NCBI RefSeq assembly: GCF_025398335.1
Contig: NZ_JAODOO010000017.1
Coordinates: forward strand, 1-64,000
Reading direction: 5' to 3'
Source: Clostridium sp. CX1
Lineage (GTDB): Bacteria; Bacillota; Clostridia; Clostridiales; Clostridiaceae
Length of the DNA: 64,000 nucleotides
The position numbers and the translations under genes were made by a program. This document shows, piece after piece, positions 41,974-57,333 of the stretch (positions are counted from its first letter, which is position 1; the number at the start of each line of letters is the position of its first letter). A model generated the notes under the pieces. That model made no database searches, was not told where the DNA came from, and worked only from the letters and a program-made list of their open reading frames with translations.

Positions 41974-43221
41974 TTAATCTAAATTTGGTAAGGTTGAGCC
42001 TCCGAAAGGCATGAGAATTACCTTAGAATCTTCCCCAGTTTCTTTGAAAGCAGCTTCCACAGCACTTTGTGCATCGCTAAAAGGCTCCATAAATATACTT
42101 CTTACAAATCCTTCTTCAAGTTCAGAAACTAGGTATACCTTACACCTTTTTAATATCATAGCAATTGCTGCTGCTTTATGACCTCCTAATTGAAAATTCT
42201 TTTTTACTTGTTCTATCATATCTTCAGGTTTTTCTGCTTCTAACATCCAGTTCTCAAATACCTTTTCTCCTAATCCTTCCCTGCAGGAGGCAACTAATAT
42301 TATTATCCCACCTTCTTTTACCGCATGTTTGGAGTTGTCCAACGCTTTTTGGGCTTGATATAAGTTTAAATCCTTAGGGTATCCTCCCGGTGTTGTGATA
42401 ACAATATCCGCTTTTTCTTTTATTCTTATCTTATAAAAACTATCTAAAAACTTACAGCCTTCTCTATGAGCTTTTATATAGTGACCGGCTACCGCTTTAA
42501 TTATTTGTTTGTTACTATCTAGTACTACATTTACTATAAAGTCTATAGGTACAAACTTTTCTACAGTTTCTATATCCATTCTTACAGGATTATCTTTTAC
42601 ATTCCCCGTTGTTGCTTTTTCATGCACCATTTTGCTATGATTTGCCTGAATAGCTGCCCTTGTTGAAACTCCCGGCATTATGGCCTTGGCACCTCCGCTG
42701 TATCCTGCAAAATAATGATATTCTATATTTCCTAAGCAAATTCTTCTGTCAGCTTTAACAACAATTTTACTAATGTCCACCGGCGTTCCCTCTGATGTTA
42801 CTCCAAGATGCACAAACTCTGTTGAACTGCTGTCTATGCAGTTTATTTTTTCATATATCTCTTTACCAACTAAATATTTTTTTTCTTCCTCTGTGTGAGA
42901 TCTATGACTACCAAGAGCAAATACTATGGTAATATCCTGATCCTTAATTCCAGCACTATTTAGTTCTTCTATTACTACAGGTAGAACTATTTTACTTGGC
43001 ATAGGTCTGGTTATATCACTAGTAACTATTACTACTTTCTCTCCTGGTTTTACTATGTCCTTTAATCTGCTGGACGCAATAGGGTTTTCCATCGCCCTTC
43101 TGACCTCATCTGCACCAGTTAGCTCTATTTTCACCTCGTTAGGCTCTAATATGCCCAAAATATTTTCACTATCTATGTCAAAGTTCATCTTTCCCTTTCC
43201 AAATCCAAAACTATATTCCAT
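41974..43221 (-). CDS. LarA-family nickel-pincer 2-hydroxyacid racemase; predicted malate racemase
   Basis: A 415-residue LarA homologue. Family knowledge: LarA uses a covalently bound Ni-pincer nucleotide to racemise lactate; other family members act on malate and other 2-hydroxyacids. Visible LarA signatures: TSDITRPMP (Asp and Arg near 70), GSHRSHT (catalytic His), EYHYFAGYSGGAKAIMPG (second catalytic His and the cofactor-linking Lys) and QANHSKM (nickel His). It follows iolG on the same strand with a hairpin between them. In this cluster, malate racemisation would join D-malate from the upstream steps to malic enzyme. No larB, larC or larE in the window. ATG 43221 is preferred over TTG 43227 because of AAGGGGG about 9 nt upstream. 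Confidence 0.8.
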   Translation of the reverse strand: MEYSFGFGKGKMNFDIDSENILGILEPNEVKIELTGADEVRRAMENPIASSRLKDIVKPGEKVVIVTSDITRPMPSKIVLPVVIEELNSAGIKDQDITIVFALGSHRSHTEEEKKYLVGKEIYEKINCIDSSSTEFVHLGVTSEGTPVDISKIVVKADRRICLGNIEYHYFAGYSGGAKAIMPGVSTRAAIQANHSKMVHEKATTGNVKDNPVRMDIETVEKFVPIDFIVNVVLDSNKQIIKAVAGHYIKAHREGCKFLDSFYKIRIKEKADIVITTPGGYPKDLNLYQAQKALDNSKHAVKEGGIIILVASCREGLGEKVFENWMLEAEKPEDMIEQVKKNFQLGGHKAAAIAMILKRCKVYLVSELEEGFVRSIFMEPFSDAQSAVEAAFKETGEDSKVILMPFGGSTLPNLD

Positions 43222-43243
43222 CCCCAATTTCCCCCTTATTTTT

Positions 43244-43299
43244 AAATAAAAACAGTAGAATTAGAATAAAGGACTTTATGCTAATCTACTGTTTTATTT
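43244..43299 (-). terminator. Strong hairpin between iolG and larA (terminator or attenuator)
   Basis: AAATAAAAACAGTAGAATTAG (written in part, 43244-43264) pairs with 43281-43299 over about 19 bp with two bulges; TTTTTATTT forms the tail on the minus strand. Only 22 nt separate it from the larA ATG, too little for a promoter, so larA probably depends on read-through and is expressed at a lower level than the iol genes. Confidence 0.75.
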
Positions 43300-43309
43300 A
43301 ACTTTTGAA

Positions 43310-44320
43310 TTACTCTATTATTTTTATTGGTCTTTTCTCTTCATAGGACTTTCTTGCAGCCATTGCAATTATAATTGGCTTTAATCCATCTATGCCTTCA
43401 ACAGGAGTTTTGGTATCATTTTTGATTGCATTAAAGAACTGTCTTAGTTCCTCCACAAAGGAATCCTTATATCTTTCTAAGAAGAAATATTTAGGCTTAT
43501 CAGCAAACACTCCTTCTGAAGTGCTAAGTACAGCTGAAGATGGAGTATCATTACTTACCGTTACCCCTCCCTTAGAACCGAATACTTCAACTCTTTGATC
43601 ATATCCGTAGGCAGCTCTCCTGCTGTTATCTATAACACCTATAGCTCCATTTTTGAATTTTAGTGTAATTAAGGCTGTATCTACATCTCCAGCTTCTCCA
43701 ATAGCAGGATCTACAAGCACTGCTGCATTTGTATATACCTCTTCTACCTCACTTCCAGATAGATATCGTACCATATCAAAATCGTGGATAGTCATATCCA
43801 TGAACATTCCACCAGAAACCTTAACATACTCAATTGGCGGCGGCTCTGGGTCTCTAGAAGTAACCTTAATGATATGAGGGTCACCTATTTTTCCTTCTTT
43901 TATAAGCTCATGTACCTTTCTAAAGTTGTGATCAAATCTCCTGTTAAAACCTACCTGAAACTTAACTCCTGCCTTTTTAACGGCATCGAGAGCAGCAACT
44001 ATCTTTTCAAGATCAAAATCTATAGGCTTTTCACAAAAAATATGCTTTCCTGCTTCAGCAGCTTCTATAGTTATAGTTGAATGGGTATTGGTTGAAGAAC
44101 ATATGAGAACTGTATTTATCTCAGGATCTTTTAATATATCCCTATAGTCTTCATAAACCTCTTCTATTCCTATTCCCTGTGCCCATTCAATTATCTTATC
44201 TGCGTATATATCGGCAATTGCCTTAAGTCTTATATCTGGAAAATTATTGACTATATTCTCCCCATGTAGTTTTCCTATTCTTCCTGCACCGATTATTCCA
44301 AGGACAATGTTATTTGACAT
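43310..44320 (-). CDS. iolG: Inositol 2-dehydrogenase
   Basis: A 336-residue Gfo/Idh/MocA oxidoreductase that oxidises myo-inositol to 2-keto-myo-inositol (scyllo-inosose) with NAD. Rossmann motif GIIGAGRIGKLHGENI (about 6-21); catalytic Lys in FCEKPIDFD (about 93-101); Asp and His in MDMTIHDFDMVRY (about 170-182). Neighbours IolE, IolD and IolB fix the substrate. GAGAGG lies before the ATG. It is the last iol gene before the hairpin leading to larA. Confidence 0.93.
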   Translation of the reverse strand: MSNNIVLGIIGAGRIGKLHGENIVNNFPDIRLKAIADIYADKIIEWAQGIGIEEVYEDYRDILKDPEINTVLICSSTNTHSTITIEAAEAGKHIFCEKPIDFDLEKIVAALDAVKKAGVKFQVGFNRRFDHNFRKVHELIKEGKIGDPHIIKVTSRDPEPPPIEYVKVSGGMFMDMTIHDFDMVRYLSGSEVEEVYTNAAVLVDPAIGEAGDVDTALITLKFKNGAIGVIDNSRRAAYGYDQRVEVFGSKGGVTVSNDTPSSAVLSTSEGVFADKPKYFFLERYKDSFVEELRQFFNAIKNDTKTPVEGIDGLKPIIIAMAARKSYEEKRPIKIIE

Positions 44321-44394
44321 TTTTAACCTCTCCCATCTAATGCTACTGGTATTTTTTATCAGATCTTTTTCGGATTAACTCCCAGTACTCCTAT

Positions 44395-45291
44395 CTATAA
44401 GCCAGTTTGCTCTTTTATAAATTTTCTTGCCTTAATTGCATATTCTAAAGGATTCGCTTTGGCTGGGTCTTGTTCAGCCTCAACAATAAACCATCCTTCA
44501 TAATTATTTTTGTCTAAGATTTTGAAAAGAGGGGCATAATTAATCATCCCATCACCTGGAACAGTAAAGACTCCATGCTTAACTGCATTAAGAAAGCTCA
44601 TCTGTTCCTTATAAACTTTATCTAATACTTCTTCTCTTATATCCTTTAAATGTACGTGTTTTATTCTATTTATATACTTATTTAAAACCACCTCTGGGTT
44701 TACCTGTGAAAAAGTAAGATGCCCTGTATCAAATAGTAAATAAACTAACTCTGGGTCTGTCATTGCCATCAGCTTATCTATTTCCTCTAGAGTCTGTACT
44801 CCCGTCCCCATATGATGGTGATAAACAATGTTCATATCTTGCTCTTTAGCAAGTTTTCCAAGCTCCTCTAAGCCTCTTGCAAGCTTAACCCATTCCTCCT
44901 CTGAAAAATGAGGCTTCCTACTTATAACAGGCATATCTATCATTCCCTGAATGCTGTGGCCCTGTTCCGCTACAACAATCACCTCTGCTCCCATTTCCTT
45001 TAGAAAATCTCTATGCTTTATAAAGGCTTCAGCAGTTTCTTCAAAGGGTTTAGTAGTTAAAAAGGAACTAAACCAAGCGCTGGCTATACTTATACCCCTT
45101 AGTTCTAAAGCTTTTTTTAATACTTGAATATCTCTAGGGTACTTATTCCCCACCTCACTTCCTGTAAATCCTGCAAGTGCCATTTCACTTATACATTGCT
45201 GAAAGGTATTTTCTCTCCCAAGCTCAGGCATATCATCATTTGTCCATGCTATAGGAGCTATCCCAAGTCTTACTTTATTTTTATCTAACAT
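44395..45291 (-). CDS. iolE: Myo-inosose-2 dehydratase
   Basis: A 298-residue TIM-barrel enzyme of the xylose-isomerase/AP-endonuclease 2 fold. It dehydrates 2-keto-myo-inositol to the trihydroxycyclohexanedione. The start (RLGIAPIAWTNDDMPELG) is diagnostic of IolE. Metal ligands are expected in YHHHMGTG, LFDTGHLTFS, HVHLKD and FIVEAEQDP, all present. GGTGGAGG precedes the ATG; 21 nt separate it from iolD. Length normal. Confidence 0.95.
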   Translation of the reverse strand: MLDKNKVRLGIAPIAWTNDDMPELGRENTFQQCISEMALAGFTGSEVGNKYPRDIQVLKKALELRGISIASAWFSSFLTTKPFEETAEAFIKHRDFLKEMGAEVIVVAEQGHSIQGMIDMPVISRKPHFSEEEWVKLARGLEELGKLAKEQDMNIVYHHHMGTGVQTLEEIDKLMAMTDPELVYLLFDTGHLTFSQVNPEVVLNKYINRIKHVHLKDIREEVLDKVYKEQMSFLNAVKHGVFTVPGDGMINYAPLFKILDKNNYEGWFIVEAEQDPAKANPLEYAIKARKFIKEQTGL

Positions 45292-45312
45292 ACTATTCCT
45301 CCACCCATCTCC

Positions 45313-47247
45313 CTAATATTCTCTAGCTTTTTTCATTTCTTCTTCTAATTCTTCACGGGCTTTCCTTATACTTTCCTTATTGGATACCTCTGCAATGCCT
45401 ACTCGCCACCAGGATTCATAATCATGAGTCATAGTTTTTGGCAGTATCTTAATGTCAATTAAGGTGGATACAGTTTGTTTTTTAGAATCTTCAATGGCTG
45501 TCCTTAGTTCTCCTACAGTTTTAACCCTATAGGTTTTACATCCATAGGCAGCGGCACTCATAGCAAAATCTATTGGAACTAAGCCACCATCCAGCTTGCC
45601 TGTTTCCTCATTTCTAAATCTAAACTCAGTTCCAAAGCTTCCCATGCCCTTACCCATTTGCAAATTATTTATACATCCAAATGACATGTTGTCAAAGACT
45701 ATAATATTTATTTTCTTTTTCTCCTGAATAGATGTTGGTAATTCTGAATGAAGCATCATATATGAACCATCCCCTAATAGTGAATACACTTCTTTTTCTG
45801 GAGCTGCAATCTTAACTCCTAAAGCTGCATTTACCTCATAGCCCATACAGGAATAGCCGTATTCCATATGGTAGCTGTTAACTGTCTTTGGTCTCCATCC
45901 CCTCTGCAGATCCCCTGGAAGACTTCCTGAAGAACCTACCACTATTGCGTCATCATCCAGCATTTCATCTAGCATCCCTAATACTTTAGTTTGAGTAAGA
46001 TAAGCTCCTGTTTTCTTTCCAAACTCCTCTAGTACATGATCTAAGTGACCAGCCACTTCCGGCTTAAAAGTTTCACCGGTATATTCTAAATTAAATAATC
46101 TATCTAATTCAGCCTGCCACTTATCTTTAGCTTCTTTTATTTCCTCTTTATAGCATGATTTATATCCAACCTTCTCCAATTCATCACCTATAGCTTCCAA
46201 GGCTGCTTTAGCATCTGCAGTAACTTTAATTGCATCTAGTTTATAGGAATCAAATTCAGCTATGTTTATATTCAAAAATTCAACCTCTGGATTTTGAAAT
46301 AACCACTTAGAGGAGGTTGTAAAATCTGTATATCTAGTTCCAACACCTATTATAAGATCTGCCTCCTTGGCAATAGTGTTCGCTGCTAAGTTTCCTGTAG
46401 CTCCTATTCCTCCTAAATTTAATTTGTGACTCCACAAAACAGCACTTTTTCCCGCCTGTGTTTCTCCAAAAGGAATATTAAATCTCTCCGCAAAACCTTT
46501 AAATACTTCCGCAGCTTCAGAATACCTTACCCCACCACCGCAGATTAGTATAGGCTTTTTCTTCCTAAGAATTAGCTCTGCTGCCTCTTTAACCATTTCC
46601 TTTGTTGCAGGCCTTCTTTCTATTCTGTGAATTCTCTTTTTAAAGAAATACTCTGGATAATCATAGGCTTCACCCTGAACATCCTGTGGAAGTGCTAATG
46701 TAACAGCTCCTGTATCTGCAGGGTCTGTCAGTACCCTCATAGCATTTATAGCTGCTGTCATTAGCTGCTCCGGTCTGCTTATTCTATCCCAGTACTTACT
46801 TACTGCTTTAAAGGCATCATTTGTGCTTATATTTAAATTATGAAAATGCTCTACCTGCTGCAATACAGGGTCTGGCTGCCTTGCTGCATATACATCTCCT
46901 GGTAAGAAAAGTACAGGAATTCTGTTTGCAGTTGCAGTTGCTGCTGCTGTCACCATATTAGCTGCCCCTGGTCCTACAGAGGAGGTGCAGGCATATATCT
47001 GCTTTCTGTGCATTTGCTTTGCAAACCCCATAGCTGCATGAGCCATTCCCTGCTCATTTCTACCTTGATGAACTATTAAGTCTCCTGAATCTTCTTCTAG
47101 GGCTTGACCTAGTCCAAGTACATTTCCATGTCCAAAGACTGTAAATATCCCCTTAACAAATTTAGTTACAGTGCCATCAAACTCTATATACTGGTTATCA
47201 AGAAACTTAACAAGAGCCTGAGCCATTGTAAGTCTTATAGTTTTCAT
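45313..47247 (-). CDS. iolD: 3D-(3,5/4)-trihydroxycyclohexane-1,2-dione acylhydrolase
   Basis: A 644-residue TPP-dependent ring-opening enzyme that produces 5-deoxy-D-glucuronate. Three-domain acetolactate-synthase-like architecture: N-terminal pyrimidine domain ([14 protein letters not shown] ... [19 protein letters not shown] with the catalytic Glu), central domain ([15 protein letters not shown]) and C-terminal TPP/Mg domain ([16 protein letters not shown]). AAGAGGTG precedes the ATG. It lies 80 bp after iolB. Confidence 0.95.
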
Positions 47248-47328: not shown

Positions 47329-48123
47329 CTATTTATCCGGCCAAATTTTAGCATCCTTTTCTGTAACCCATAAATGTTCAGGAACAAAGGTTGGAGTTAT
47401 ATATGGATTTCCATCTAAGTGTCTTATAACCCAGATGTAGTACATTGCATATCCTGGTGCTGTAGTTTGAGGATGAGTAGCGTTATCTAATATTTTTACA
47501 GTATCATTATTTTTTATTTTTACTACGTCCTCTCCTAGTTCAGAGAAGCCATATCCATTTTCAGGGTTAAACTTATAGAAGTATATCTCTGGCTGTGGAT
47601 GATAGTGTGGAGGGTAGCTCGACCATTTTCCTGGATAATCTACTACTTCCCCTACTACTAGGTTTGAATAATCTGCATTTGAATAATCAAAAACAGTTCT
47701 TACAATTCTTGTGGATGCCTCCTTCATTGTTCCAGCTCCACGATTTTCACTTCTACATTCTTTATTTGTATATAATTTAGATTGAAATACCTTGTCATTA
47801 GTGGTCTTCGTAACAGAGATTTCCGTATCTTCCGAAAGACCAGTAATTTTTACCTCTACATCCTTCGGTACATGAAGCACCCATGGATCCTCATCAAAAC
47901 AAGATTTTCTTGCAGCTATTTCTTTTTTTTCTTCATATTCAAAAACCACTTCACCTTTTATTAAAAGAAATGCCCTTTCTTTACTGTCTTTATCTATTTC
48001 CACCTGCCCTTTAGCAATTCTCAATATGCCAAAGTCCATCATAGTATTATGCTCTTTTTCATCAATTGCAGCTATAGAGTTATAGCCATAACTAAAAGCT
48101 TCCTTTTGTCTAATTCTCAACAC
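47329..48123 (-). CDS. iolB: 5-deoxy-glucuronate isomerase
   Basis: A 264-residue bicupin that converts 5-deoxy-D-glucuronate to 5-dehydro-2-deoxy-D-gluconate. The metal site is seen in YPPHYHPQPEIYFYKF (about 168-183: two His and Glu) with a further His in DNATHPQTTAPGYAMYY. GTG start with GAGGTG 7 nt upstream. It lies 34 bp after the transketolase C-terminal subunit gene. Its product is a ketose with the D-threo arrangement that transketolases accept, which is central to the pathway hypothesis. Confidence 0.93.
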   Translation of the reverse strand: MLRIRQKEAFSYGYNSIAAIDEKEHNTMMDFGILRIAKGQVEIDKDSKERAFLLIKGEVVFEYEEKKEIAARKSCFDEDPWVLHVPKDVEVKITGLSEDTEISVTKTTNDKVFQSKLYTNKECRSENRGAGTMKEASTRIVRTVFDYSNADYSNLVVGEVVDYPGKWSSYPPHYHPQPEIYFYKFNPENGYGFSELGEDVVKIKNNDTVKILDNATHPQTTAPGYAMYYIWVIRHLDGNPYITPTFVPEHLWVTEKDAKIWPDK

Positions 48124-48157: not shown

Positions 48158-49132
48158 CTATTTGCTACACTTTCTTTCTAACACTCTTTTAACCTTTGTA
48201 ATTATGTGGTTGTAGGTAAGTCCATACTCTTCTTTTAAATAATCTACCGGTCCAACTTGACCAAATCTATCTTCTACACCTACCCTTTCAACAGGTACTG
48301 GTACACTCTCTACAACAACCTCCGCCACTGCCGAACCTAATCCGTTAAGAATACTGTGATTTTCAGCAGTTACAATTGCTCCTGTCTCCTCAGCGCATTT
48401 TATTATTGCTTCTTTATCTATAGGCTTTAAGGTAAATACATTTTCAACTCTTACAGAAATTCCTTCTTTATCCAACTCTTCAGCCGCTTTAAGGGCCTCT
48501 TCCACCATTATGCCCGTAGCAAAGACTGTTACATCCTTGCCGTCTCTTAGTGGTATAGCCTTTCCGATTTCAAAGGTAGATCCTTCTGCATAAATCTTTG
48601 TGGCATTTTTCCTTAGAAGTCTTGTATAAAACACACCATATTTGTAAGCAATCTGTCCTATTATATCTTTAAGCATGGTACTATCTACAGGTTCAATAAT
48701 GGTTATATTAGGAACATTTCTTAATATTCCCATATCCTCAAAAGGCATATGAGTGCCTCCATTATAAGCAGCAGTTACTCCTGGATCACTACCGGTTATT
48801 TTCACATTTAACTTTCCATAACCACAGGATAAAAATATTTGATCAAAGCACCTTCTTGTAGCAAAAGGACCAAAGCTGTGGGCAAAGGGAATCAGCCCTA
48901 CTGCAGACATGCCTGCTGCTGTTCCCATCATATTAGCTTCCTGTATTCCAACATTAAAGGTTCTTTCAGGATATTTCTTCTGGAAAGACACCATTCCCAT
49001 AGAACTCATTAAATCAGCATCAAGTACAACTACATTCTCATCTTTTTCAGCCAACTCCATAAGAGTCTCACAGTACATAGTTCTCATTTCTTTTTCTTCT
49101 TTTACTCTTTTTTCAGCTAATTTTACAACCAC
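48158..49132 (-). CDS. Transketolase, C-terminal subunit
   Basis: A 324-residue subunit comprising the pyrimidine-binding and C-terminal domains of a split transketolase. The pyrimidine domain shows VVLDADLMSSMGMVSFQKKYP and VGIQEANMMGTAAGMS with the catalytic Glu (about 75-90). The substrate loop reads GVTAAYNGGTHMPFEDMG, where usual transketolases have GLGEDGPTHQPVE, so the acidic residue that helps recognise the sugar is changed. GTG start overlaps the stop codon of the N-subunit gene (TAGTG). With its partner it probably transfers a two-carbon ketol unit from an inositol-derived ketose. Confidence 0.88.
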   Translation of the reverse strand: MVVKLAEKRVKEEKEMRTMYCETLMELAEKDENVVVLDADLMSSMGMVSFQKKYPERTFNVGIQEANMMGTAAGMSAVGLIPFAHSFGPFATRRCFDQIFLSCGYGKLNVKITGSDPGVTAAYNGGTHMPFEDMGILRNVPNITIIEPVDSTMLKDIIGQIAYKYGVFYTRLLRKNATKIYAEGSTFEIGKAIPLRDGKDVTVFATGIMVEEALKAAEELDKEGISVRVENVFTLKPIDKEAIIKCAEETGAIVTAENHSILNGLGSAVAEVVVESVPVPVERVGVEDRFGQVGPVDYLKEEYGLTYNHIITKVKRVLERKCSK

Positions 49133-49977
49133 TATTTCTCCACCTCCTTCAGCTTATCTTCTAAAAGTCTTATAGCTTCTTTCATCTGTTCTTCGCTTAC
49201 TGTAATATGGTGGTTACTTACAATGCCTTCACCAAAACAATAACCTTTACTTTTTATAGTGTTAAGCACTATAACCGAAGGTTTTCCCTTGTTCTCCTTA
49301 GCTTTAATAACTGCATTATATATCTCCTCAACATCATGGCCACAAACCTCTTGTGAAAACCATCCAAAGCTTTGGAATTTAGCCACTATATCCCCTAAAT
49401 CATTTATATCCTTTGTAAATCCATCTAATTGCTGCTTATTATAGTCAACAAAGGCTATAAGATGATCTGCCTTTTGTTGGGCAGCACACATAACCATTTC
49501 CCATACCTGACCTTCCTGAATTTCTCCATCGCCAAGAATTAGATAAATATAATTGCTTCTTCCTTTTAGTCTGTTTCCAATTGTTACTCCTAAAGCTGTT
49601 GATGCACCTTGACCTAGAGAGCCTGTAGTCATATCTATACCTGTAGTAAGATTTCTATCACAATGGCTTGGTAAATGAGTAGCTGGTTTGTTTAGGGTAA
49701 GTAGGTCTTCTTTAGGAAAATAGCCCTTTAATGCTAAGGTAGAGTATACCGCAGGGCCGGCATGTCCCTTTGAGCATACAAGCCAATCTCTTTCCTCCCA
49801 GCTTGGGTTTTTCGGATCTATATTCATTACGTCACCATAAAGAACTGCTAATGTATCAACTACTGACATAGCTCCACCCATATGTCCAAAACCTAAGGTG
49901 CCAATAGTTCTTATAGTCTCAATCCTTATTTTAAGAGCCAGTGCTTCTAGCTCCTTCTTTTTTTCTAAGCTTAACAT
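49132..49977 (-). CDS. Transketolase, N-terminal subunit
   Basis: A 281-residue TPP-pyrophosphate-binding subunit. GHMGGAMSVVDTLAVLYGD (about 30-48), SKGHAGPAVYSTLALKGYF (His contacts to TPP), TTGSLGQGASTALG and the Mg/TPP motif GDGEIQEGQVWE (about 149-160) are intact, with DYNKQQLDG following. GGAGG lies 6 nt before ATG, one base after the PGK-like gene. Split transketolases of this layout occur in specialised sugar routes as well as in general pentose metabolism; the position inside the inositol operon favours a dedicated role. Confidence 0.9.
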   Translation of the reverse strand: MLSLEKKKELEALALKIRIETIRTIGTLGFGHMGGAMSVVDTLAVLYGDVMNIDPKNPSWEERDWLVCSKGHAGPAVYSTLALKGYFPKEDLLTLNKPATHLPSHCDRNLTTGIDMTTGSLGQGASTALGVTIGNRLKGRSNYIYLILGDGEIQEGQVWEMVMCAAQQKADHLIAFVDYNKQQLDGFTKDINDLGDIVAKFQSFGWFSQEVCGHDVEEIYNAVIKAKENKGKPSVIVLNTIKSKGYCFGEGIVSNHHITVSEEQMKEAIRLLEDKLKEVEK

Positions 49978-49978
49978 A

Positions 49979-51247
49979 CTATACCTCCACTTCCCGTGTA
50001 TAAGCCTTTTTCATTGCTTCAATTAAAGGTAATTTTACTCCAGATAAGAACCTAACCATAGCACCACCAGCAGTACAAACATAATTTATCCTTGACGTAT
50101 CAATAAAACGCTGTGCGGCACTAACAGTATCTCCTCCACCTATAACAGAATATCCTTTTGCTTCTGCTATAGAAGTCCATATTCCCTTAGTTCCATTTTC
50201 AAAAATTTTATTTTCATAAACTCCTGCTGGTCCATTGACAAATATAGTCCCTGCTTTAGAGAGTTCTTTCTTAAACAACTCTATAGTTTCACAACCTATA
50301 TCCATGAACATATGGTTTAAAGGAAGTTTATCAATAGAAGTCTCTTTTCTCATACCACCTTCTTCATAGGCTAAATCTAGAGGATAAACTATCTTTTCAC
50401 TATACTTTTCTAAATACTCCTTTGCAGAGCCTATAAATACATCTAGTTTTCTATCCTTAATAAATTTTTCGTTAACCTCTCCTATGTTATAGCCCTTAGC
50501 CATCAACATAATATTGCCTGTAACTCCGCAGCATAATATTTTGTCTGCAGTTCCATTTTCTAATACTTGTTTCATCATTCCAAAGGCATCAGATATCTTA
50601 AGTCCACCAAGTACAAAAACAGAGGGTTTGCTCGGGCATTCCATAACCTTTGTAAGTGCACTTAACTCTTGAAACATAAGCAAACCTGCTGCCGTAGGAA
50701 GTAATTCCTGAAAGGCTACCATTGAAGGAGCATTTCTGTGAGCTGCTGCAAAGGCATCATTTACATAGAAGTCTACTATTGGAGCAAGACTTCTTACTAA
50801 ATAGGTATTCAGCATATCCTTAGCCTCAAGTTTTACTGCATCCTCAAAGGTTGATATTTCTTCTGTTAGATATCTAAGATTTCCTAGGAGAACTACTTCT
50901 CCTGATTTTAAATTCTTAACTGCCTCCTGTGCTGCAGGACCACAAACATCGTCAATATATTTAACTTCTCTACCTAGCTTTTGTGATAACTTTTCTGCAT
51001 GTTCTCCCATTGGTATTAAATTGTGATAGTCCAGCGTATCTCCCTGGTGGGCAATTATAGCTACTTTTGCTCCCCTGTCTATAAGATATTTAACTGTAGG
51101 AATACTCTTATTTATTCTATTTTCACTTACAATCTTTTTAGTTTCTATGTCTATAGGAGAGTTTATATCAAGCCTTAATAAAACTCTTTTATCCTTATAG
51201 TCAAACTCCTCCATAGACCTTATTCCAACATCTACTTTGACATCCAT
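49979..51247 (-). CDS. Archaeal-type phosphoglycerate kinase homologue; predicted acyl-phosphate kinase (malyl phosphate?)
   Basis: A 422-residue PGK-fold protein. N-terminal domain: VLLRLDINSPID, ENRINKSIPTVKYLIDRGAKV; hinge and C-terminal nucleotide domain: VFVLGGLKISDAF, FVNGPAGVYE, GGGDTVSAA, all as in PGKs, closest in pattern to archaeal ones (NDAFAAAHRNAPSM). However, the substrate motif SHxGRP/SHQGRPG reads AHQGDTLDY (residues 66-74): the Arg that holds the 3-phosphate is Asp70. This suggests a substrate without that phosphate. It overlaps the GAPDH-like gene by 16 bp. A later start at Met12 is possible. I infer ATP formation from an acyl phosphate made by that neighbour. Confidence 0.85.
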   Translation of the reverse strand: MDVKVDVGIRSMEEFDYKDKRVLLRLDINSPIDIETKKIVSENRINKSIPTVKYLIDRGAKVAIIAHQGDTLDYHNLIPMGEHAEKLSQKLGREVKYIDDVCGPAAQEAVKNLKSGEVVLLGNLRYLTEEISTFEDAVKLEAKDMLNTYLVRSLAPIVDFYVNDAFAAAHRNAPSMVAFQELLPTAAGLLMFQELSALTKVMECPSKPSVFVLGGLKISDAFGMMKQVLENGTADKILCCGVTGNIMLMAKGYNIGEVNEKFIKDRKLDVFIGSAKEYLEKYSEKIVYPLDLAYEEGGMRKETSIDKLPLNHMFMDIGCETIELFKKELSKAGTIFVNGPAGVYENKIFENGTKGIWTSIAEAKGYSVIGGGDTVSAAQRFIDTSRINYVCTAGGAMVRFLSGVKLPLIEAMKKAYTREVEV

Positions 51248-52260
51248 TTTCCCAACCCCAAATACTTATTTGTTTCTGTAACTGCTTCAATTCTGTCCCT
51301 TTGCATTTCCATAGCTGCTCTTATCGCATCTATATTTTCTGGTATAACTACCGCTTCCTGTGGAATATTTATAGCAAACATTATATCCTTACCAGACTTA
51401 ACAACAGACTCCTCAAATACAGCTATTTCATACATATCTCCTCTTGGGTTTCCAAGGTCCCTTGCATACCTGAATAAAGACGCATTTCCTAAGAATCCAT
51501 CAACAAGTCTTACATTTCTTATTCTTGGATGCTGACTAAAAATATCTAATAGTTCTTCTTTTAATATATCTTCCTTAGGCGTAGCTACAACAGTAATTAT
51601 ATGGCCGTGAGTTACTGGTGTATGAACAAGTATCCCTGTAGCATCTACATGAGGCATTATAGTCATAAGATCTAAGGCTTGATGGCTTGGAGCCTTATCT
51701 ACCTGAAGTGCGTTAGTAAGCCCTCTGTGGTAATCTCCTGGATCTGCAACTCTTCTTATTATGGTAATTGCAACCTTTTCTACACCAACTTTTCTATCTA
51801 TGCAGTCTACTGCTCTTATTAATCCAGTAGTATTACAGGATGTTAGCTTTAAAAATTGCTTTCCTATACCTTTCTCATAGTTTGCATAGCCATGGAAAAA
51901 CACATCTGCTACATCATTATTTTCTCCACCTTGGAATATTGCTTTTTTATTATATTTTTTATAAAGCTCCTTATTTTTAGCACCTATACCAGCACTGGTA
52001 GCATCAAGAATTACATCACATTTTTGAATCAAATCTTCTAGTGTTCCACTTATAGGTATTCCAGCTTCCTTGAATAATCCTTCATTTCCAGCCATCGCAT
52101 TATATAAGTTATAAGGCATACCCTTTTCCTTTAAAGCTCTTACCGCTAAAGTAGGCGAAACATCAGCAACCCCTACAAGCTCCATATCTCCTTGCAGAGC
52201 AACTCCATCTGCCAATCTTTGTCCAATAACGCCGTATCCAACAACTCCTACTTTTATCAT
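51232..52260 (-). CDS. Archaeal-type (type II) glyceraldehyde-3-phosphate dehydrogenase homologue; predicted D-malate-semialdehyde dehydrogenase
   Basis: A 342-residue protein with the archaeal GAPDH pattern: GVVGYGVIGQRLADGV (Rossmann, 5-20), LQGGENND-like IFQGGENNDV, catalytic Cys in TSCNTTGLIRAVD (about 139-151), IIRRVADPGDYHRG, APSHQALDLM with the catalytic His region, RDLGNPRGDMYEI and the C terminus IPENIDAIRAAMEM. Bacteria normally use the other GAPDH type for glycolysis, so this copy is probably specialised and perhaps acquired from archaea. Its gene overlaps the PGK-like gene, implying the pair works in sequence: aldehyde to acyl phosphate to acid plus ATP. D-malate semialdehyde is a carboxymethyl analogue of glyceraldehyde 3-phosphate. 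AGGAGG precedes ATG. Confidence 0.85.
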   Translation of the reverse strand: MIKVGVVGYGVIGQRLADGVALQGDMELVGVADVSPTLAVRALKEKGMPYNLYNAMAGNEGLFKEAGIPISGTLEDLIQKCDVILDATSAGIGAKNKELYKKYNKKAIFQGGENNDVADVFFHGYANYEKGIGKQFLKLTSCNTTGLIRAVDCIDRKVGVEKVAITIIRRVADPGDYHRGLTNALQVDKAPSHQALDLMTIMPHVDATGILVHTPVTHGHIITVVATPKEDILKEELLDIFSQHPRIRNVRLVDGFLGNASLFRYARDLGNPRGDMYEIAVFEESVVKSGKDIMFAINIPQEAVVIPENIDAIRAAMEMQRDRIEAVTETNKYLGLGKWMSK

Positions 52261-52318: not shown

Positions 52319-53554
52319 TTATAGACCTTGTCTAAGAAGTTCAATTGTATGCTCTTCAACCATTTCTGGAGTAATATCCTTTCTTCTTGCAACCCCTGTT
52401 TCAATAGCAGCCTTCGCCACATATAAAGCAACCTTTGGTGCTATTCTCAAATCAAAGGCCTCTGGAATAACATAGTCTTCTCTTAACTGATCCTCATTTA
52501 TAAGTTCTGCTATTGCATAGGCTGCTGCAATCTTCATCTCATCATTAATTTCGCTAGCACGAACATCTAATGCCCCTCTAAATATTCCTGGAAAAGCTAA
52601 GACATTGTTAACTTGATTTGGGTAATCAGATCTTCCAGTGCATACAACCCTAGCCCCTGCTTCCTTTGCTAAGTTAGGAAGTATTTCTGGGTTTGGGTTT
52701 GCCATCGCCATTATTATTGAGTCACTATTCATTGATTTAACCATTTCCTGTGTTACACAGTTTGCTGCTGAAACTCCTAAAAATACATCTGCTCCCTTTA
52801 GCACCTTTTCAAGATTACCTTGTTCTTGGTCAGGATTTGTTATTTGAGCAATTTCCTCTTTATATTTGTTCATGCCCTCTGTTCTGCTTTTATATATAGC
52901 TCCCTTAGTATCACAAAGTATTATATTTTTTGTTCCCATCTTTAACAGAAGCTTTGTTATAGCAATTCCAGCAGAACCAGCACCATTAATAACCACTTTT
53001 AAATCTTCAAATTTTTTATTAGTAATTTTTAGGGCATTAATTAGGCAGGCAGAAGACACCACTGCAGTTCCATGCTGATCGTCATGAAATATTGGTATAT
53101 TACATATTTCCTTTAATTTATCTTCTATTTCAAAACACTCCGGTGCCTTAATATCCTCTAAGTTTATGCCGCCAAAAGCAGATTCCATAAGTTTTACCGT
53201 CTCTACAATCTTATTTATGTCTTTAGTTTCTAAGCATATTGGAAAAGCATCCACTCCTCCAAAGGATTTAAATAAAACAGCTTTACCCTCCATAACTGGA
53301 AGCCCTGCTGCTGCACCAATATCTCCAAGTCCCAGTACAGCTGTTCCATTAGTAACAACAGCTACCCAATTTCCCTTTGCTGTATAGTCATATATACAAT
53401 CATAGTTTTTCTCAATCTCTAAGCAGGGTTCTGCTACCCCTGGAGTATATGCAAGAGTTAAGTCCTCCTTATTCTTTACCGGCACCTTGCACCTTAAGGC
53501 AATTTTTCCTTTGTTATCTTTATGAAATTTTAATGCTCTTTCTCTTAATTCCAA
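52319..53554 (-). CDS. NAD(P)-dependent malic enzyme
   Basis: A 411-residue short bacterial malic enzyme without a phosphotransacetylase tail. It oxidatively decarboxylates L-malate to pyruvate. Motifs: TLAYTPGVAEPC (about 32-43), GDIGAAAGLPVMEGKA, the catalytic Lys/Asp region INLEDIKAPECFEIE and FHDDQHGTAVV (metal Asp), Rossmann GAGSAGIAITKLL (about 190-202) and MANPNPEI. TTG start with GGGAGG upstream. It lies between the sugar ABC permease and the GAPDH-like gene, which makes malate a likely intermediate of the pathway encoded here. Confidence 0.92.
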   Translation of the reverse strand: MELRERALKFHKDNKGKIALRCKVPVKNKEDLTLAYTPGVAEPCLEIEKNYDCIYDYTAKGNWVAVVTNGTAVLGLGDIGAAAGLPVMEGKAVLFKSFGGVDAFPICLETKDINKIVETVKLMESAFGGINLEDIKAPECFEIEDKLKEICNIPIFHDDQHGTAVVSSACLINALKITNKKFEDLKVVINGAGSAGIAITKLLLKMGTKNIILCDTKGAIYKSRTEGMNKYKEEIAQITNPDQEQGNLEKVLKGADVFLGVSAANCVTQEMVKSMNSDSIIMAMANPNPEILPNLAKEAGARVVCTGRSDYPNQVNNVLAFPGIFRGALDVRASEINDEMKIAAAYAIAELINEDQLREDYVIPEAFDLRIAPKVALYVAKAAIETGVARRKDITPEMVEEHTIELLRQGL

Positions 53555-53628: not shown

Positions 53629-54675
53629 TTATGCTTTTACATTAACCGGTGTATTAGTATTTGTGTTGCTATTTGAATTTGTCTTAGCCTTCTTTTGAGC
53701 CTGAGTTCTTAAAACATCCACATAAACAGCACCAATTATAACTAATCCTATAGCAACAGTCTGTACGTCTGCTGGTACTCCTAGAAGATTCAGTCCATTT
53801 CTAAGTACAGCCATAATCATAGAACCTATTAGTGTACCCCATACTGTACCGGAACCACCCATGAAGGAAGCCCCTCCTATGATACAGGCTGCAATAGCAT
53901 CCGCATCATAGTTTAATCCTGCCAGCGGAAAAGCAGCGTTAACTCTTCCTACTAAAACTATTCCACAAAGGGCTGCCATAAAACCGCTTAGAGAATAGAC
54001 TAGAACTAGAGTTTTTGATACATTAACTCCTGATAACTTTGCAGCTTCTGGATTACCTCCAACTGCATATATATATCTTCCTTGAGCAGTTCTATTCAAA
54101 AATATGTGAAATATAGCGTATACAGCTATAACTAATATAAAACTAACTGGAATTAGACCTATTTTCTCTGAACCTAAGAATTGAACAGATTTAGAAAAAC
54201 CTGATATCGGTGATGCTCCTGTAACTATAAGTGCCAAGCCTGCTGCCACATTTTTCATAGCTAATGTAGATATAAATGGATGAGGTAATTTCAATTTTGT
54301 AAGCAGTATCCCATTGATAAACCCTAGAAAAGAGCCAACTACTAGACATAGTATAATTGCCATCATAGCATTAAGGTGCCATTTTGTTATTGCTACTGCC
54401 ATTACGCAAATAGATAAAGCTAATACAGAACCAACAGACAAGTCTATCCCTGCTGTTAATATAGTTAACAGCATACCTACTGAGATTAAACTATTTAGTG
54501 CTGATTGATTTGCTATGTTCATGATATTTTTAAAAGTTAAAAATTGATCTGAAGCAAAAGTTAAAATAACACAGAGCAATAGTAATCCTAGTAAAGACCC
54601 AAATTTAGATAAAATTGCTCTTAAGGATTTATCTTCTGATACGTTAAACCTATCCTTTTTTCTCTCTTGTTCCAT
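53629..54675 (-). CDS. Sugar ABC transporter permease (RbsC type), predicted inositol importer
   Basis: A 348-residue permease with 8-10 transmembrane helices. Family motifs: TILTAGIDLSVGSVLALS (about 69-86), PHPFISTLAMKNVAAGLALIVTG, GGNPEAAKLSGVNVSKTLVLVYSLSG (coupling loop, about 205-230) and ACIIGGASFMGGSGTVWGTLIG. The C terminus is Asn/Thr-rich. Its start is 3 bp after the ATPase gene. Placement at the head of the iol operon implies myo-inositol or a related cyclitol as substrate. Confidence 0.9.
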   Translation of the reverse strand: MEQERKKDRFNVSEDKSLRAILSKFGSLLGLLLLCVILTFASDQFLTFKNIMNIANQSALNSLISVGMLLTILTAGIDLSVGSVLALSICVMAVAITKWHLNAMMAIILCLVVGSFLGFINGILLTKLKLPHPFISTLAMKNVAAGLALIVTGASPISGFSKSVQFLGSEKIGLIPVSFILVIAVYAIFHIFLNRTAQGRYIYAVGGNPEAAKLSGVNVSKTLVLVYSLSGFMAALCGIVLVGRVNAAFPLAGLNYDADAIAACIIGGASFMGGSGTVWGTLIGSMIMAVLRNGLNLLGVPADVQTVAIGLVIIGAVYVDVLRTQAQKKAKTNSNSNTNTNTPVNVKA

Positions 54676-54678
54676 TAC

Positions 54679-56175
54679 TTACACCCCCCCTGAAGCTGCT
54701 TTCATAATATTTTCTTGGTTTGCATTTTCTCTAGCAAATTCTCCAGTAATCCTTCCCTCATGCATAACAATAACTCTATCACTCATGCCTAGTATCTCTG
54801 GCATTTCAGAAGATATCATTATTATTGCTGCACCATTAGAGACTAGCTCATTCATAACGTTGTAAACCTCTACCTTTGCCCCTACATCTATTCCTCTAGT
54901 AGGCTCATCAAAGATAAATATGTCTGCCTTTGTATTCAGCCACTTTGCTATAACAACCTTTTGCTGGTTTCCTCCACTTAACTGTCTTACTATAAACTTT
55001 TCTGACGGAGGATTTATATTTAGCTTTTTGATATTTTCTTTACATCTTTCTTTAGACTTTTTCATGTTCAATAGAAACCTAGATTTTATTTTATCGTATG
55101 AAGAAATGTTCATATTGAAGGAAACAGTATTGCCAAGAATCAAACCTTGTCCCTTTCTGTCCTCCGTAAGAAATGCAATTCCTGATTTCATAGCATCCTC
55201 AGGAGACTTTATTCTTACTTTTCTACCATGAATATATACGTCACCTGAGTTTATCCGGTCTGCACCAAATATTGCTCTAGCAACCTCTGTTCTTCCTGCC
55301 CCTACAAGTCCTGCTAGACCTAAAATTTCCCCTCTTCTAACACTAAAGCTTATGCTCTCAAATACTCCTGTACTTTTCAAATTTTCAACTCTTAAAACTT
55401 CTTCTCCTAAGGTTGTGTTCACCTTTGGAAATTGATGCTCTAAATTTCTTCCAACCATTAGCTTAATTAACTCATCAGTAGTAACCTCACCAATAGGAAG
55501 AGTCTTTACCTTTTCTCCATCTCTCATTACGGTAACTCTATCGCATATCTCCATTATTTCATCAAGTCTATGGGATATAAATATTATAGCTATACCTTTA
55601 CTTTTTAAATTTTTTACAGTTCTTAACAACTCTCTTACCTCTCTGTTACTTAAACTGGAGGTAGGCTCATCCATTATAAGAAGTTTTGTTTTAACACTAA
55701 GGGCTTTAGCAATTTCCACCATTTGCTGCTTTCCCATTCCCAATCTATCTATACCTATTCTAGGATCAATCTCCTGACCTAATTCTCTCAATAATTCTGA
55801 GGATCTTTTCCTCATTTCTTTTATATTAAGCAATCCAGATCTACCATTATTCTTTAACTCTCTACCTAGAAATACGTTCTCTGCCACAGTAAGCTGTTTA
55901 ACAATATTTAATTCTTGATAAATAGCTGTTATACCTAATTCCATGGCATGCTTAGGTCCATTAATTTTAGTTTCTTTTCCCTCTATTAATATCTGTCCTT
56001 CATCATTTTTATGAGCTCCTGTTAAAATTTTAATTAATGTAGATTTACCTGCACCATTTTCCCCAACTAGTCCTAGTACCTCTCCTGGATATACATCTAA
56101 GTCTATGTCATTTAAGGCCCGTACTCCCGGAAAAATCTTAGAAACACCTTTTAGCTCAATAAACGGTTTTTCCAT
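54679..56175 (-). CDS. Sugar ABC transporter ATP-binding protein (RbsA type, two ATPase domains)
   Basis: A 498-residue duplicated ATPase. The first domain has Walker A GENGAGKST (about 37-45), signature LGMGKQQMVEIAKAL and Walker B LLIMDEPTSSLS. The second has the degenerate Walker A region GLVGAGRTE (about 290-298), signature LSGGNQQKVVIAKWL and Walker B IFIFDEPTRGID. This is the usual carbohydrate uptake CUT2 layout. GAGGTGG precedes ATG. Works with the permease and the binding lipoprotein; inositol is the probable cargo from context. Confidence 0.92.
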   Translation of the reverse strand: MEKPFIELKGVSKIFPGVRALNDIDLDVYPGEVLGLVGENGAGKSTLIKILTGAHKNDEGQILIEGKETKINGPKHAMELGITAIYQELNIVKQLTVAENVFLGRELKNNGRSGLLNIKEMRKRSSELLRELGQEIDPRIGIDRLGMGKQQMVEIAKALSVKTKLLIMDEPTSSLSNREVRELLRTVKNLKSKGIAIIFISHRLDEIMEICDRVTVMRDGEKVKTLPIGEVTTDELIKLMVGRNLEHQFPKVNTTLGEEVLRVENLKSTGVFESISFSVRRGEILGLAGLVGAGRTEVARAIFGADRINSGDVYIHGRKVRIKSPEDAMKSGIAFLTEDRKGQGLILGNTVSFNMNISSYDKIKSRFLLNMKKSKERCKENIKKLNINPPSEKFIVRQLSGGNQQKVVIAKWLNTKADIFIFDEPTRGIDVGAKVEVYNVMNELVSNGAAIIMISSEMPEILGMSDRVIVMHEGRITGEFARENANQENIMKAASGGV

Positions 56176-56217
56176 TATTCAAACCACCTCAATTTTTGTA
56201 AGCTATAAAACTTATTT

Positions 56218-56291
56218 GATGGGCCCAACATAGTATTTTGATGCAATTTCATTTTGTAACTCCGTTGGAGTTTTTACTAGTTGGGCTCATC
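56218..56291 (-). other. Long stem-loop between binding-protein and ATPase genes
   Basis: GATGGGCCCAACATAGTA (56218-56235) pairs with 56275-56291 (one mismatch, one bulge); inside it AACTCC-GTT-GGAGTT (56258-56272) forms a second hairpin. There is no T-run after it on the minus strand, so it is more likely an mRNA-stabilising or processing element that keeps the binding-protein message abundant relative to the rest of the operon. Confidence 0.65.
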
Positions 56292-56343
56292 TTTCAATTT
56301 AATTGCTTTGCTTTATAAAAGCTATAATATGGCTATATTATTC

Positions 56344-57333
56344 TTATTTTTTCAAAATCTTATCTAAGTCTGCTTGAGCTTGGTCTACGTTTTCCTTTGA
56401 TATTACACTTGTTCCAGTATCAACTCTAACATCAACCTTTTCACCCTTTGCAGCCTTAACTGCAGTTTCAACACCTAGTTTTCCTATATTGTATGGACTT
56501 TGTGCAACTGATGCTGTAAGTTCTCCTGCTTTTATTGATTTTAAAGCATCTGGAGAACCGTCAAATCCTACTACAGCTACGTTAGCTTTATTAGCTTGCT
56601 TAAGAGCTCTTTCAGCACCTAAAGCCATCTCGTCATTTGAACAGAAAACGCCTTTTACATTAGGATGAGTTTGTAATAAGTTTTCCATTACGGACATAGC
56701 TTTGTTTCTATCACTATTTGCAGGTTGTACTTCTACTACTTTTACTCCAGCAGCTTCAAGTTCTGTCTTGGCACCGTTTACACGTTCATCATGAGTTGCA
56801 TCACCTAATGCTCCCCTTATAATAACTACTTCTGCTCCCTTTCCAATTTTATCAGCTAAGAATTTACCACCAAGTTTACCACCAGCTAAGTTTCCTGTTC
56901 CTACAAAAGATTTCTTCTTATCCCACTTTGCGTCAGTATCTATAAGTACAACAGGGATTTTAGCCTCATCAGCCTTATCAAAGGTAGCTAATGCTGCACT
57001 TGGTTGAGATGGTGCTACTACCAATACGGATACTTTTTTAGTTATTTGGTCTTCCATAATAGATGTTTGTCCTGCTATATCCGTTTCATCATTTGGACCA
57101 AGCACCTTTACTTCTACTCCTAAAGCCTTACCAGCATCCATTGCTCCAGCCTGAACTATTTTCCAGTAGTCACTATTTAACGCTTTTAATACAACTGCTA
57201 CATTAGTCTTTCCATCCTTACTGCCTGATGTCTGCTGACTGTTATCTGCTGCCTTATTTCCACAACCAGCAAAAGTTGATGATAATACCGCTGTAATAGC
57301 AAGTATTCCTAAAATTTTTCCATACCTCTTCAT
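56344..57333 (-). CDS. Sugar-binding lipoprotein (RbsB type), predicted inositol binding protein
   Basis: A 329-residue periplasmic-binding-protein-like lipoprotein. The signal peptide ends in the lipobox FAGC (Cys about 24). The type I binding fold begins NVAVVLKALNSDYWKIVQAGAMDAGKALG in pieces (about 45-73), with hinge-region motifs VLVVAPSQPSAAL, VVLIDTDAKWD, VEVQPANSDRNKAMSVMENLL and FCSNDEMALGA. First gene of the 12-gene inositol cluster; AAGGGGG lies before ATG. It resembles ribose/inositol binding proteins; context points to inositol. Confidence 0.9.
   Translation of the reverse strand: MKRYGKILGILAITAVLSSTFAGCGNKAADNSQQTSGSKDGKTNVAVVLKALNSDYWKIVQAGAMDAGKALGVEVKVLGPNDETDIAGQTSIMEDQITKKVSVLVVAPSQPSAALATFDKADEAKIPVVLIDTDAKWDKKKSFVGTGNLAGGKLGGKFLADKIGKGAEVVIIRGALGDATHDERVNGAKTELEAAGVKVVEVQPANSDRNKAMSVMENLLQTHPNVKGVFCSNDEMALGAERALKQANKANVAVVGFDGSPDALKSIKAGELTASVAQSPYNIGKLGVETAVKAAKGEKVDVRVDTGTSVISKENVDQAQADLDKILKK

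Follow-up and report, generated by a model that had tools for sequence, protein, structure and literature searches.

A predicted transketolase route from inositol to malate and pyruvate in Clostridium sp. CX1 and its relatives

Introduction

The upper half of the classical myo-inositol pathway (IolG, IolE, IolD, IolB, IolC, IolJ, and IolA), which leads to 5-dehydro-2-deoxygluconate, is common to a 13-gene operon that we analyze here in Clostridium sp. CX1 (assembly GCF_025398335.1, contig NZ_JAODOO010000017.1, positions 1-64,000 of the forward strand; this whole stretch of 64,000 nucleotides is referred to as the window). The operon, at positions 41974-57333, differs from the classical pathway in that it encodes a transketolase, homologues of glyceraldehyde-3-phosphate dehydrogenase (GAPDH) and phosphoglycerate kinase (PGK), a malate racemase, and a malic enzyme in place of IolC and IolJ. 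We propose, with a probability of roughly 0.86, that it encodes a new variant of inositol catabolism, namely a transketolase route to malate and pyruvate that is analogous to transketolase sulfoglycolysis. This interpretation had been put forward in an earlier note made from the letters of this stretch, and it came through the tests that were able to break it.

By analogy of reaction logic, the described systems closest to the routes proposed here are sulfo-TK and sulfo-TAL, the transketolase and transaldolase forms of sulfoglycolysis. In sulfo-TK, which was described in a clostridium (SqwGH of Clostridium sp. MSTE9), the transketolase homologue cleaves a non-phosphorylated ketose with another anionic group at the position of the phosphate, and the ketol unit goes to glyceraldehyde 3-phosphate; sulfo-TAL is its transaldolase sibling and parallels the transaldolase exit that we predict below for inositol (PMC9594981, in the part cited here). 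The earlier note had likewise named a split transketolase (SqwGH) in sulfoquinovose breakdown as a precedent. Unlike in sulfo-TK, the substrate here would be the inositol-derived 5-dehydro-2-deoxygluconate, and the product is predicted to be oxidized to D-malate by the GAPDH and PGK homologues, with formation of ATP, and to be fully metabolized, whereas the product of sulfo-TK exits as a sulfonate.

A precedent for the lower half comes from L-carnitine degradation in Acinetobacter baumannii, in which malic semialdehyde is converted into D-malate and the latter into pyruvate by a D-malate dehydrogenase orthologous to Escherichia coli DmlA. There, however, a carnitine monooxygenase makes the malic semialdehyde and an NAD(P)-dependent dehydrogenase oxidizes it (according to the portion of PMC11353897 drawn on here), in place of the GAPDH and PGK homologues predicted for the present route.

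The earlier note knew of no description of such a route for inositol, and, judged by titles and the openings of abstracts, we likewise found none, whether through transketolase or transaldolase, in the open-access literature; subscription journals could hold one. The main texts of two papers on LarA contain no occurrence of "inositol" or "transketolase". A study of inositol utilization in Anaerostipes has IolC and IolJ in use, with neither "transketolase" nor "transaldolase" in the text available from it (PMC8355322), and a culturomics paper of 2026 raises, in an excerpt, the possibility that strains lacking known iol clusters have an alternative inositol pathway yet to be identified (PMC12838507).

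Results

The operon and the genome that carries it

The operon comprises 13 open reading frames (ORFs), all on the minus strand, which in the order of transcription encode a substrate-binding protein, an ABC ATPase, a permease, malic enzyme, type II GAPDH, PGK, the N-terminal and C-terminal halves of a transketolase, IolB, IolD, IolE, IolG, and LarA. The gaps between neighbors range from -16 to +168 bp and are thus operon-like; two short plus-strand ORFs (98 and 103 amino acids) also lie inside this region. Families were called with curated profile models (NCBIfam and Pfam) and their cut-offs (Table 1), and the calls bear out the gene content that the earlier note had given for the cluster as well as the absence of IolC, IolJ, and IolA from it. 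The thiamine-binding, pyrimidine, and C-terminal domains of transketolase are all present, spread over two chains (Pfam), and the nearest PDB relative of the pair is a split transketolase with a solved structure. LarA scores below the cut-offs of lactate racemase and the other LarA groups shown, and its closest PDB sequence is the malate racemase Mar2 (6d6z, 422 bits). Among the named loci that were fetched (designated by L-numbers, as genomes are by G-numbers), that of Clostridium magnum (L009) is closest over the whole operon, with an identical gene order and proteins that are 78-92% identical.

In the CX1 assembly (4.24 Mb in 71 contigs; completeness 99.97%, contamination 2.02%), a profile search yielded no IolC over the cut-off (best match 119.7 bits versus 300), and the same search placed 3 of 14 control genomes over it. 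No IolJ was recognized; the fused DUF2090 aldolase (PMC9007349, in part) was not searched for. The single class II aldolase (PF01116) of the genome scores 366 bits versus a fructose-bisphosphate aldolase cut-off of 343, and we therefore rejected it as a candidate IolJ. An IolA-type methylmalonate-semialdehyde dehydrogenase (MMSDH) homologue is found on another contig (561 versus 448.5 bits), next to a class III aminotransferase and an amino-acid permease (L098:7548-13694, G000:C1). These neighbors point to the breakdown of omega-amino acids, for which this stretch is, judging from its genes, probably a catabolic cluster, so that the dehydrogenase may well be no sign of the classical route. The genome-wide check of iolC, iolJ, and iolA proposed in the earlier note thus came out as anticipated for the kinase and the aldolase, but an IolA-type gene does exist elsewhere. 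The label "kinase-free", which had been attached to the pathway, is apt insofar as the sugar-acid kinase IolC is missing, but is loose given that the PGK homologue is itself a kinase. Glycolysis has its own cluster of GAPDH-I, PGK, and triose-phosphate isomerase (TPI), separate from the operon; three other genes carry a transketolase pyrimidine domain; and larB, larC, and larE, for the cofactor of LarA, are all present over their cut-offs.

The proposed route and its chemistry

The steps of IolG, IolE, IolD, and IolB are assigned by family, and we infer all those past IolB. The importer encoded in the operon would bring in an inositol, which the four Iol enzymes would convert into 5-dehydro-2-deoxy-D-gluconate. 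Going by established structures, this compound as a ketose should be HOCH2-CO-CHOH-CHOH-CH2-COOH with the D-threo arrangement, that is, xylulose 5-phosphate with CH2-COOH replacing CH2-OPO3, and loss of its ketol should yield (R)-malate semialdehyde, the counterpart of glyceraldehyde 3-phosphate. The split transketolase would transfer carbons 5-6 (the ketol unit) to an aldose phosphate of the pentose phosphate pathway, freeing D-malate semialdehyde; the type II GAPDH homologue, as a phosphorylating dehydrogenase, would combine the latter with phosphate to give malyl phosphate, and the PGK homologue would use malyl phosphate and ADP to form D-malate and ATP. Oxidation of (R)-malate semialdehyde yields D-malate, so that either a racemase or a D-malate dehydrogenase is required ahead of pyruvate; here the nickel racemase LarA would turn D-malate into L-malate, and malic enzyme would produce pyruvate and CO2. 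IolC, IolJ, and IolA would not be used.

The C2 units would exit via pentose phosphates and fructose 6-phosphate. Phosphofructokinase is a possible partner that could lead the fructose 6-phosphate arising in the transketolase reactions back to triose phosphates, and the exit of C2 units in this form may be the reason why a phosphofructokinase gene is found near the operon. According to our own calculation, three inositols would yield five molecules of pyruvate and three of CO2, with phosphofructokinase turning over twice. The gene near the window operon and its homologues in five of the fetched loci (L008, L009, L010, L016, and L018) fit this book-keeping; moreover, in L016 LarA is followed by phosphofructokinase and then by fructose-bisphosphate aldolase, both over their cut-offs (430 versus 423 for the aldolase), as would suit the recycling of C2 units.

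Co-occurrence in the class of CX1

Among 391 genomes drawn from the bacterial class of CX1, IolD is present in 28 and the operon-type (type II) GAPDH in 16, with both in 12 (p = 2e-12; the Fisher tests, here and for the loci below, ignore the relatedness of genomes), and in nine of these 12 the two genes are at most 10 kb apart. IolC over the cut-off was found in none of the 12 genomes with both genes versus 11 of the 16 IolD-positive genomes that lack this GAPDH (p = 2e-4). Conversely, a malate racemase over the cut-off is present in all 12 versus one of the 16 (p = 4e-7). Below the cut-offs, IolC-family matches at E 1e-60 appear in six more of the 28 genomes, one of which (G179, 208 bits) belongs to the 12, and racemase-family matches at E 1e-100 likewise in six more. 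The transketolase pair adjoins GAPDH-PGK in 10 of the 12 genomes. In G340 the predicted route is split over two contigs, one with the iol genes, malic enzyme, and LarA, and the other with GAPDH, PGK, and transketolase, ending in a LarA fragment. In 13 control loci of the IolC type (from 12 genomes), tblastn at E 1e-10 detected no operon-type GAPDH, PGK, transketolase C-terminal half, LarA, or malic enzyme; one of these loci has a 32% match to the transketolase N-terminal half. The earlier note had suggested a comparative search for the module in the absence of IolC: in the 28 IolD-positive genomes, IolC over the cut-off and GAPDH indeed exclude each other, but one locus from outside this sample, L057, has both.

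The module in other phyla and the swap of LarA for a putative D-malate dehydrogenase

We further surveyed 80 loci, which were chosen out of 429 for the highest GAPDH similarity and not at random; many are contig fragments, the absence of a gene denotes its absence from the fetched stretch, and presence was called by tblastn, since the ORF caller mis-called some G+C-rich loci. PGK is present in 78 of these loci, the transketolase pair in 30, at least two Iol genes in 39, LarA in 43, malic enzyme in 21, and a TIGR02089-like dehydrogenase (a homologue at the level of at least 45% of the L023 protein) in seven. In 25 of the 80 loci, the GAPDH is joined by the complete transketolase pair and by two or more Iol genes (at least 40% identity in each case), which indicates that the operon grouping is more than chance.

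LarA and the TIGR02089-like dehydrogenase never occur together in the 80 loci (43 versus 7; p = 0.003), and 22 of the 25 iol-transketolase loci have one or the other, the remaining three being L041, L042, and L061. In Clostridium ganghwense (L023) and a metagenome-assembled genome (MAG) of Thermotogae (L073), a full iol-transketolase operon contains the dehydrogenase and lacks both LarA and malic enzyme, the tartrate/D-malate-dehydrogenase homologue occupying the place of the racemase. The other five dehydrogenase loci have no iol pair, and one of them, L074, has transketolase. Three of the seven dehydrogenases were scanned, those of L023 and L073 among them, and all score over the TIGR02089 cut-off. 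This model is named tartrate dehydrogenase, and we assume that the DmlA-type D-malate dehydrogenases belong to it, so that the protein replacing LarA would be of the same family as DmlA. We regard the swap of LarA for a dehydrogenase as the strongest single indication that D-malate is an intermediate. The reasoning of the earlier note, in which the stereochemistry of D-malate explained the need for a racemase, is in accord with this swap in two iol-transketolase operons, with the placement of LarA in the malate class, and with Mar2 as its nearest structural relative.

Residues at the substrate positions

The external sequences include duplicates (e.g., L108 and L082), which were merged by a 100-residue core to obtain distinct sequences. 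The PGK residues that bind bisphosphoglycerate (BPG) are Asp23, Asn25, Arg38, His62, Arg65, Arg122, and Arg170 (PMC3900376, in the part used here). The window protein has Asp in place of Arg65, and in 91 external loci this position holds Asp in 80, Ser in eight, Gly in two, and Asn in one, with a basic residue in none (Asp 79, Ser 8, Gly 2, and Asn 1 in 90 distinct sequences). Three aligned PDB proteins have Arg or Lys there, and the housekeeping PGK of CX1 has Lys (MAFFT alignment); a plain BLAST alignment placed Glu at this position of the housekeeping enzyme, which we ascribe to a shifted gap. Beside operon-type GAPDH in L034, L053, L065, L067, L068, L069, L086, L087, L110, L112, and L113, there is a second PGK subgroup, which shares 43-48% identity with the window PGK and has Ser, Gly, or Asn at the Arg65 position.

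For transketolase, we take Arg318, Ser345, His416, and Arg474 of the human enzyme to be phosphate-contact or substrate positions. The position of His416 holds Asp in all 38 external loci that cover every checked position, and the other split transketolase of CX1 itself (L101) has His there. Among 37 distinct sequences, 36 have Asp and one Gly, the latter from L065, a 24% match that we take for a dehydrogenase E1-beta chain. In the 38 loci, the Arg318 position is Lys in five and the Ser345 position Ala or Cys in seven. The catalytic Cys of GAPDH is present in 97 of 97 external loci, and in the window protein as well as in all 97 (89 distinct sequences, all with Gln) the motif SHH is replaced by SHQ, the second His having become Gln. 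The four PDB members of type II GAPDH that were aligned have SHH. Taken from the sequences, these substitutions in PGK, transketolase, and GAPDH suggest substrates other than the usual ones, without proving which. LarA keeps the catalytic residues of Mar2 and three of its four named substrate residues (alignment to 6d6z; residues from the cited part of PMC7583248).

A predicted third exit through transaldolase

Apart from G057, which has a partial IolC, four IolD-positive genomes (G037, G065, G082, and G093) have neither the operon-type GAPDH nor IolC over the cut-off, their sub-cut-off IolC matches amounting to 209-228 bits. All four carry a transaldolase-family gene (with the G037 protein as query, 97% identity in G065, 93% in G093, and 67% in G082), and in each case this gene is inside the iol operon together with an aldehyde dehydrogenase gene (L104-L107); the same transaldolase-type iol operon is found in G179 (L121). 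The L104 and L105 proteins match Pfam TAL_FSA with 153 bits each, and the three proteins scanned are all under the NCBIfam transaldolase cut-offs. The aldehyde dehydrogenase of L105 is of the MMSDH type (585 versus 448.5 bits), with 92-95% identical proteins in L106 and L107; that of L104 is of the acylating sulfoacetaldehyde dehydrogenase type (603 versus 600), and that of L121 is just under the same cut-off (594 versus 600). The transaldolase is predicted to cleave 5-dehydro-2-deoxygluconate, which would give malonate semialdehyde. G155 has IolC plus transaldolases (71-72% identity) on contigs apart from its iol genes.

By their exit markers, the 28 IolD-positive genomes divide into 11 with IolC over the cut-off plus one with a partial IolC on the iol contig (G057, 283 bits), 12 with GAPDH, and four with transaldolase only. 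It appears likely that inositol catabolism in this class ends by three alternative exits from 5-dehydro-2-deoxygluconate: one through IolC/IolJ, one in which transketolase leads to D-malate, and one in which transaldolase leads to malonate semialdehyde. Such a set would mirror sulfoglycolysis. We consider it likely to the same degree that GAPDH, PGK, and the racemase also form a portable unit that handles D-malate semialdehyde of other origin, e.g., from 4-amino-3-hydroxybutyrate.

Other settings of the lower module

Several loci combine GAPDH and PGK with other genes. Clostridium magnum has a second malic enzyme-GAPDH-PGK-LarA copy without iol or transketolase genes (L012:8513-13688), flanked by metallo-beta-lactamase-fold and 3-hydroxyacyl-CoA-dehydrogenase-like genes. 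A class III aminotransferase adjoins GAPDH-PGK in L060:8638-14778, which also has malic enzyme and LarA, and in L080:8618-12266; with these aminotransferases, malate semialdehyde would possibly be derived from 4-amino-3-hydroxybutyrate. For carnitine dehydrogenase, L012 and L080 proteins gave weak matches, all under the cut-offs shown. L082:9419-17063 and L035:8121-14226 have GAPDH-PGK-malic enzyme together with Asp/Glu-racemase-like, 2-hydroxyacid dehydrogenase, and KduI/IolB-like proteins (families scanned for L082 only), and an Asp/Glu-racemase-like gene, which was scanned, is also beside GAPDH-PGK in L065. Finally, L109:4051-16850 contains malic enzyme, LarA, the C-terminal and N-terminal transketolase halves, PGK, and GAPDH in this order, along with a short-chain dehydrogenase/reductase (SDR) of the D-mannonate oxidoreductase group, a zinc dehydrogenase, and a tripartite ATP-independent periplasmic (TRAP) transporter, and no iol genes, which suggests another entry to the lower pathway.

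Features and neighbors of the operon

The AraC-type gene divergent from the operon probably regulates it, to judge from its position and domain; homologues with 38-59% identity are found in L009, L010, L011, L018, L023, and L071, and weaker ones in seven more loci. A scan for promoters and terminators in the window gave no excess over shuffled sequences. Directly downstream of the operon (38888-41758) are genes for a corrinoid- or heme-type ABC ATPase, cobinamide kinase, cobalamin synthase, and alpha-ribazole phosphatase.

Table 1. Coordinates and family evidence for the operon, its flanking genes, and the transaldolase-family genes of other iol operons. Bit scores are given with model cut-offs; the PDB entry 2cun is, as we assume, an archaeal protein.
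Feature	Coordinates	Strand	Evidence
LarA-type nickel-dependent malate racemase (LarAH6)	41974..43227	-	NF052593 597 bits versus cut-off 500
IolG, inositol 2-dehydrogenase	43310..44320	-	TIGR04380 489 bits versus 355
IolE, inosose dehydratase	44395..45291	-	TIGR04379 437 bits versus 290
IolD, trihydroxycyclohexanedione hydrolase	45313..47247	-	TIGR04377 980 bits versus 715
IolB-like isomerase	47329..48123	-	Pfam KduI/IolB 201 bits versus 23.9; NCBIfam IolB 106 bits, under cut-off 205
Transketolase C-terminal half	48158..49132	-	Pfam Transket_pyr and Transketolase_C; top PDB match 6yaj, split transketolase
Transketolase N-terminal half	49132..49977	-	Pfam Transketolase_N; top PDB match 6yak
PGK homologue	49979..51247	-	PF00162 373 bits; top PDB match PGK chain 2cun
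Type II GAPDH homologue	51232..52260	-	NF003251 419 bits versus 185
Malic enzyme	52319..53554	-	Pfam malic and Malic_M over cut-off; PRK12861 424 bits, under 1178 (model of a longer protein)
ABC importer permease, RbsC-like	53629..54675	-	ribose permease model 253 bits, under cut-off 398
ABC importer ATPase, RbsA-like	54679..56175	-	RbsA model 589 bits, under cut-off 745
Substrate-binding protein, RbsB-like	56344..57333	-	RbsB model 203 bits, under cut-off 337
Divergent regulator with AraC-type DNA-binding domain	57784..60126	+	profile match; relatives in other loci
6-Phosphofructokinase	60221..61183	+	TIGR02482 389 bits versus 371
Transaldolase-family gene	L104:6862-7941, L105:6910-7986, L121:7994-9070		in iol operons without IolC/IolJ, beside aldehyde dehydrogenase

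Discussion

Several observations weigh against the transketolase route. With respect to the loci, 14 of the 39 that contain iol genes, all from Spirochaetota by record title, have no transketolase pair in the fetched stretch; in 20 of the 80 GAPDH loci, no iol pair, transketolase, LarA, or dehydrogenase lies nearby; just 21 of the 80 include malic enzyme; and both spirochaete LarA proteins that were scanned are under the cut-off of 500 (421 bits in L025 and 386 in L057). L057, a spirochaete MAG locus on one contig (19-16778), encodes IolD, IolE, a class II aldolase, and an IolC that exceeds the cut-off (375 versus 300). Some 5 kb away from these iol genes it has a separate cluster of GAPDH, PGK, transketolase, LarA, and malic enzyme, so that the module may serve other substrates. 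Within the class sample, no transketolase pair appeared in the sequence fetched for G179 and G322; G179, moreover, has its iol genes in the transaldolase-type operon, 160 kb from its GAPDH, along with the sub-cut-off IolC match noted above. GAPDH is also found in 4 of the 363 IolD-negative genomes, two of them without LarA nearby: G163 has two copies, both accompanied by LarA and malic enzyme and one by the transketolase pair as well, G382 has LarA, G259 only PGK, and G272 no PGK match. Furthermore, the window LarA has Phe where Mar2 has Lys173. Finally, the PGK keeps six of the seven BPG-binding residues, and the window transketolase keeps the other phosphate contacts; as these residues are mostly retained, activity on the ordinary phosphates is possible, and in any case the acceptor of the ketol unit must be phosphorylated.

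This retention of the PGK and transketolase residues is what one would expect if the transketolase, GAPDH, and PGK were extra glycolytic and pentose phosphate copies that boost flux, with a distant enzyme replacing IolC and IolJ, and the genome does hold several such copies, including the other transketolase-type genes and the complete GAPDH-I/PGK/TPI cluster. However, such copies would leave the malate racemase and malic enzyme without a role and would not account for the lack of overlap with IolC across the class sample, for the swap for a tartrate/D-malate dehydrogenase, or for the conserved substitutions. We consider this explanation quite improbable, if the least improbable of the three alternatives that we weighed.

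Only slightly less probable is that the module, though genuine, is fed chiefly from elsewhere, for instance by another deoxy-ketogluconate or by amino or betaine compounds that give malate semialdehyde, its link to the iol genes being secondary. A further point against the transketolase route, and one that speaks for such sources, is that GAPDH, PGK, LarA, and malic enzyme occur without transketolase and without IolD, IolE, or IolG in L012, L060, and L082, and this occurrence outside the iol context does indicate that the lower module is portable. Other sources would also be in line with the class III aminotransferase beside GAPDH-PGK in L060, its L080 counterpart, which exceeds the GABA aminotransferase cut-off, the transketolase module of L109 with its SDR, zinc dehydrogenase, and TRAP transporter, and the coexistence of IolC and the module in L057; moreover, Acinetobacter forms malic semialdehyde and D-malate from L-carnitine (PMC11353897, in the part cited). 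Nevertheless, the transketolase pair resides with iol genes in the window and in the 25 iol-transketolase loci, and 11 of the 12 genomes with both GAPDH and IolD have neither IolC over the cut-off nor an iol-type transaldolase, which speaks against a secondary link.

Least probable of the three is the substitution of a phosphofructokinase-family kinase and a class II aldolase for IolC and IolJ, after the manner of the PfkA-like and FbaA-like enzymes of sulfo-EMP2 (PMC9594981, in part). It would be in line with the phosphofructokinase genes found close to the operon and in five relatives, and with the kinase and class II aldolase that follow LarA in L016, but the window and L016 kinases are over the 6-phosphofructokinase equivalog cut-off, the L016 aldolase is over that of fructose-bisphosphate aldolase, the kinase is found in only five fetched loci, and transketolase, GAPDH, PGK, and LarA would have no job.

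If the transketolase route proposed here is correct, 10 to 12 of the 28 sampled inositol operons in the class would be complete rather than broken, and would go unnoticed by models of inositol catabolism that demand IolC. A carboxylate analogue of glyceraldehyde 3-phosphate would join the substrates of the GAPDH and PGK folds, and the LarAH6 malate racemases would gain a physiological role. Furthermore, the transketolase and transaldolase strategies of sulfoquinovose breakdown would reach inositol, a major plant-derived carbon source.

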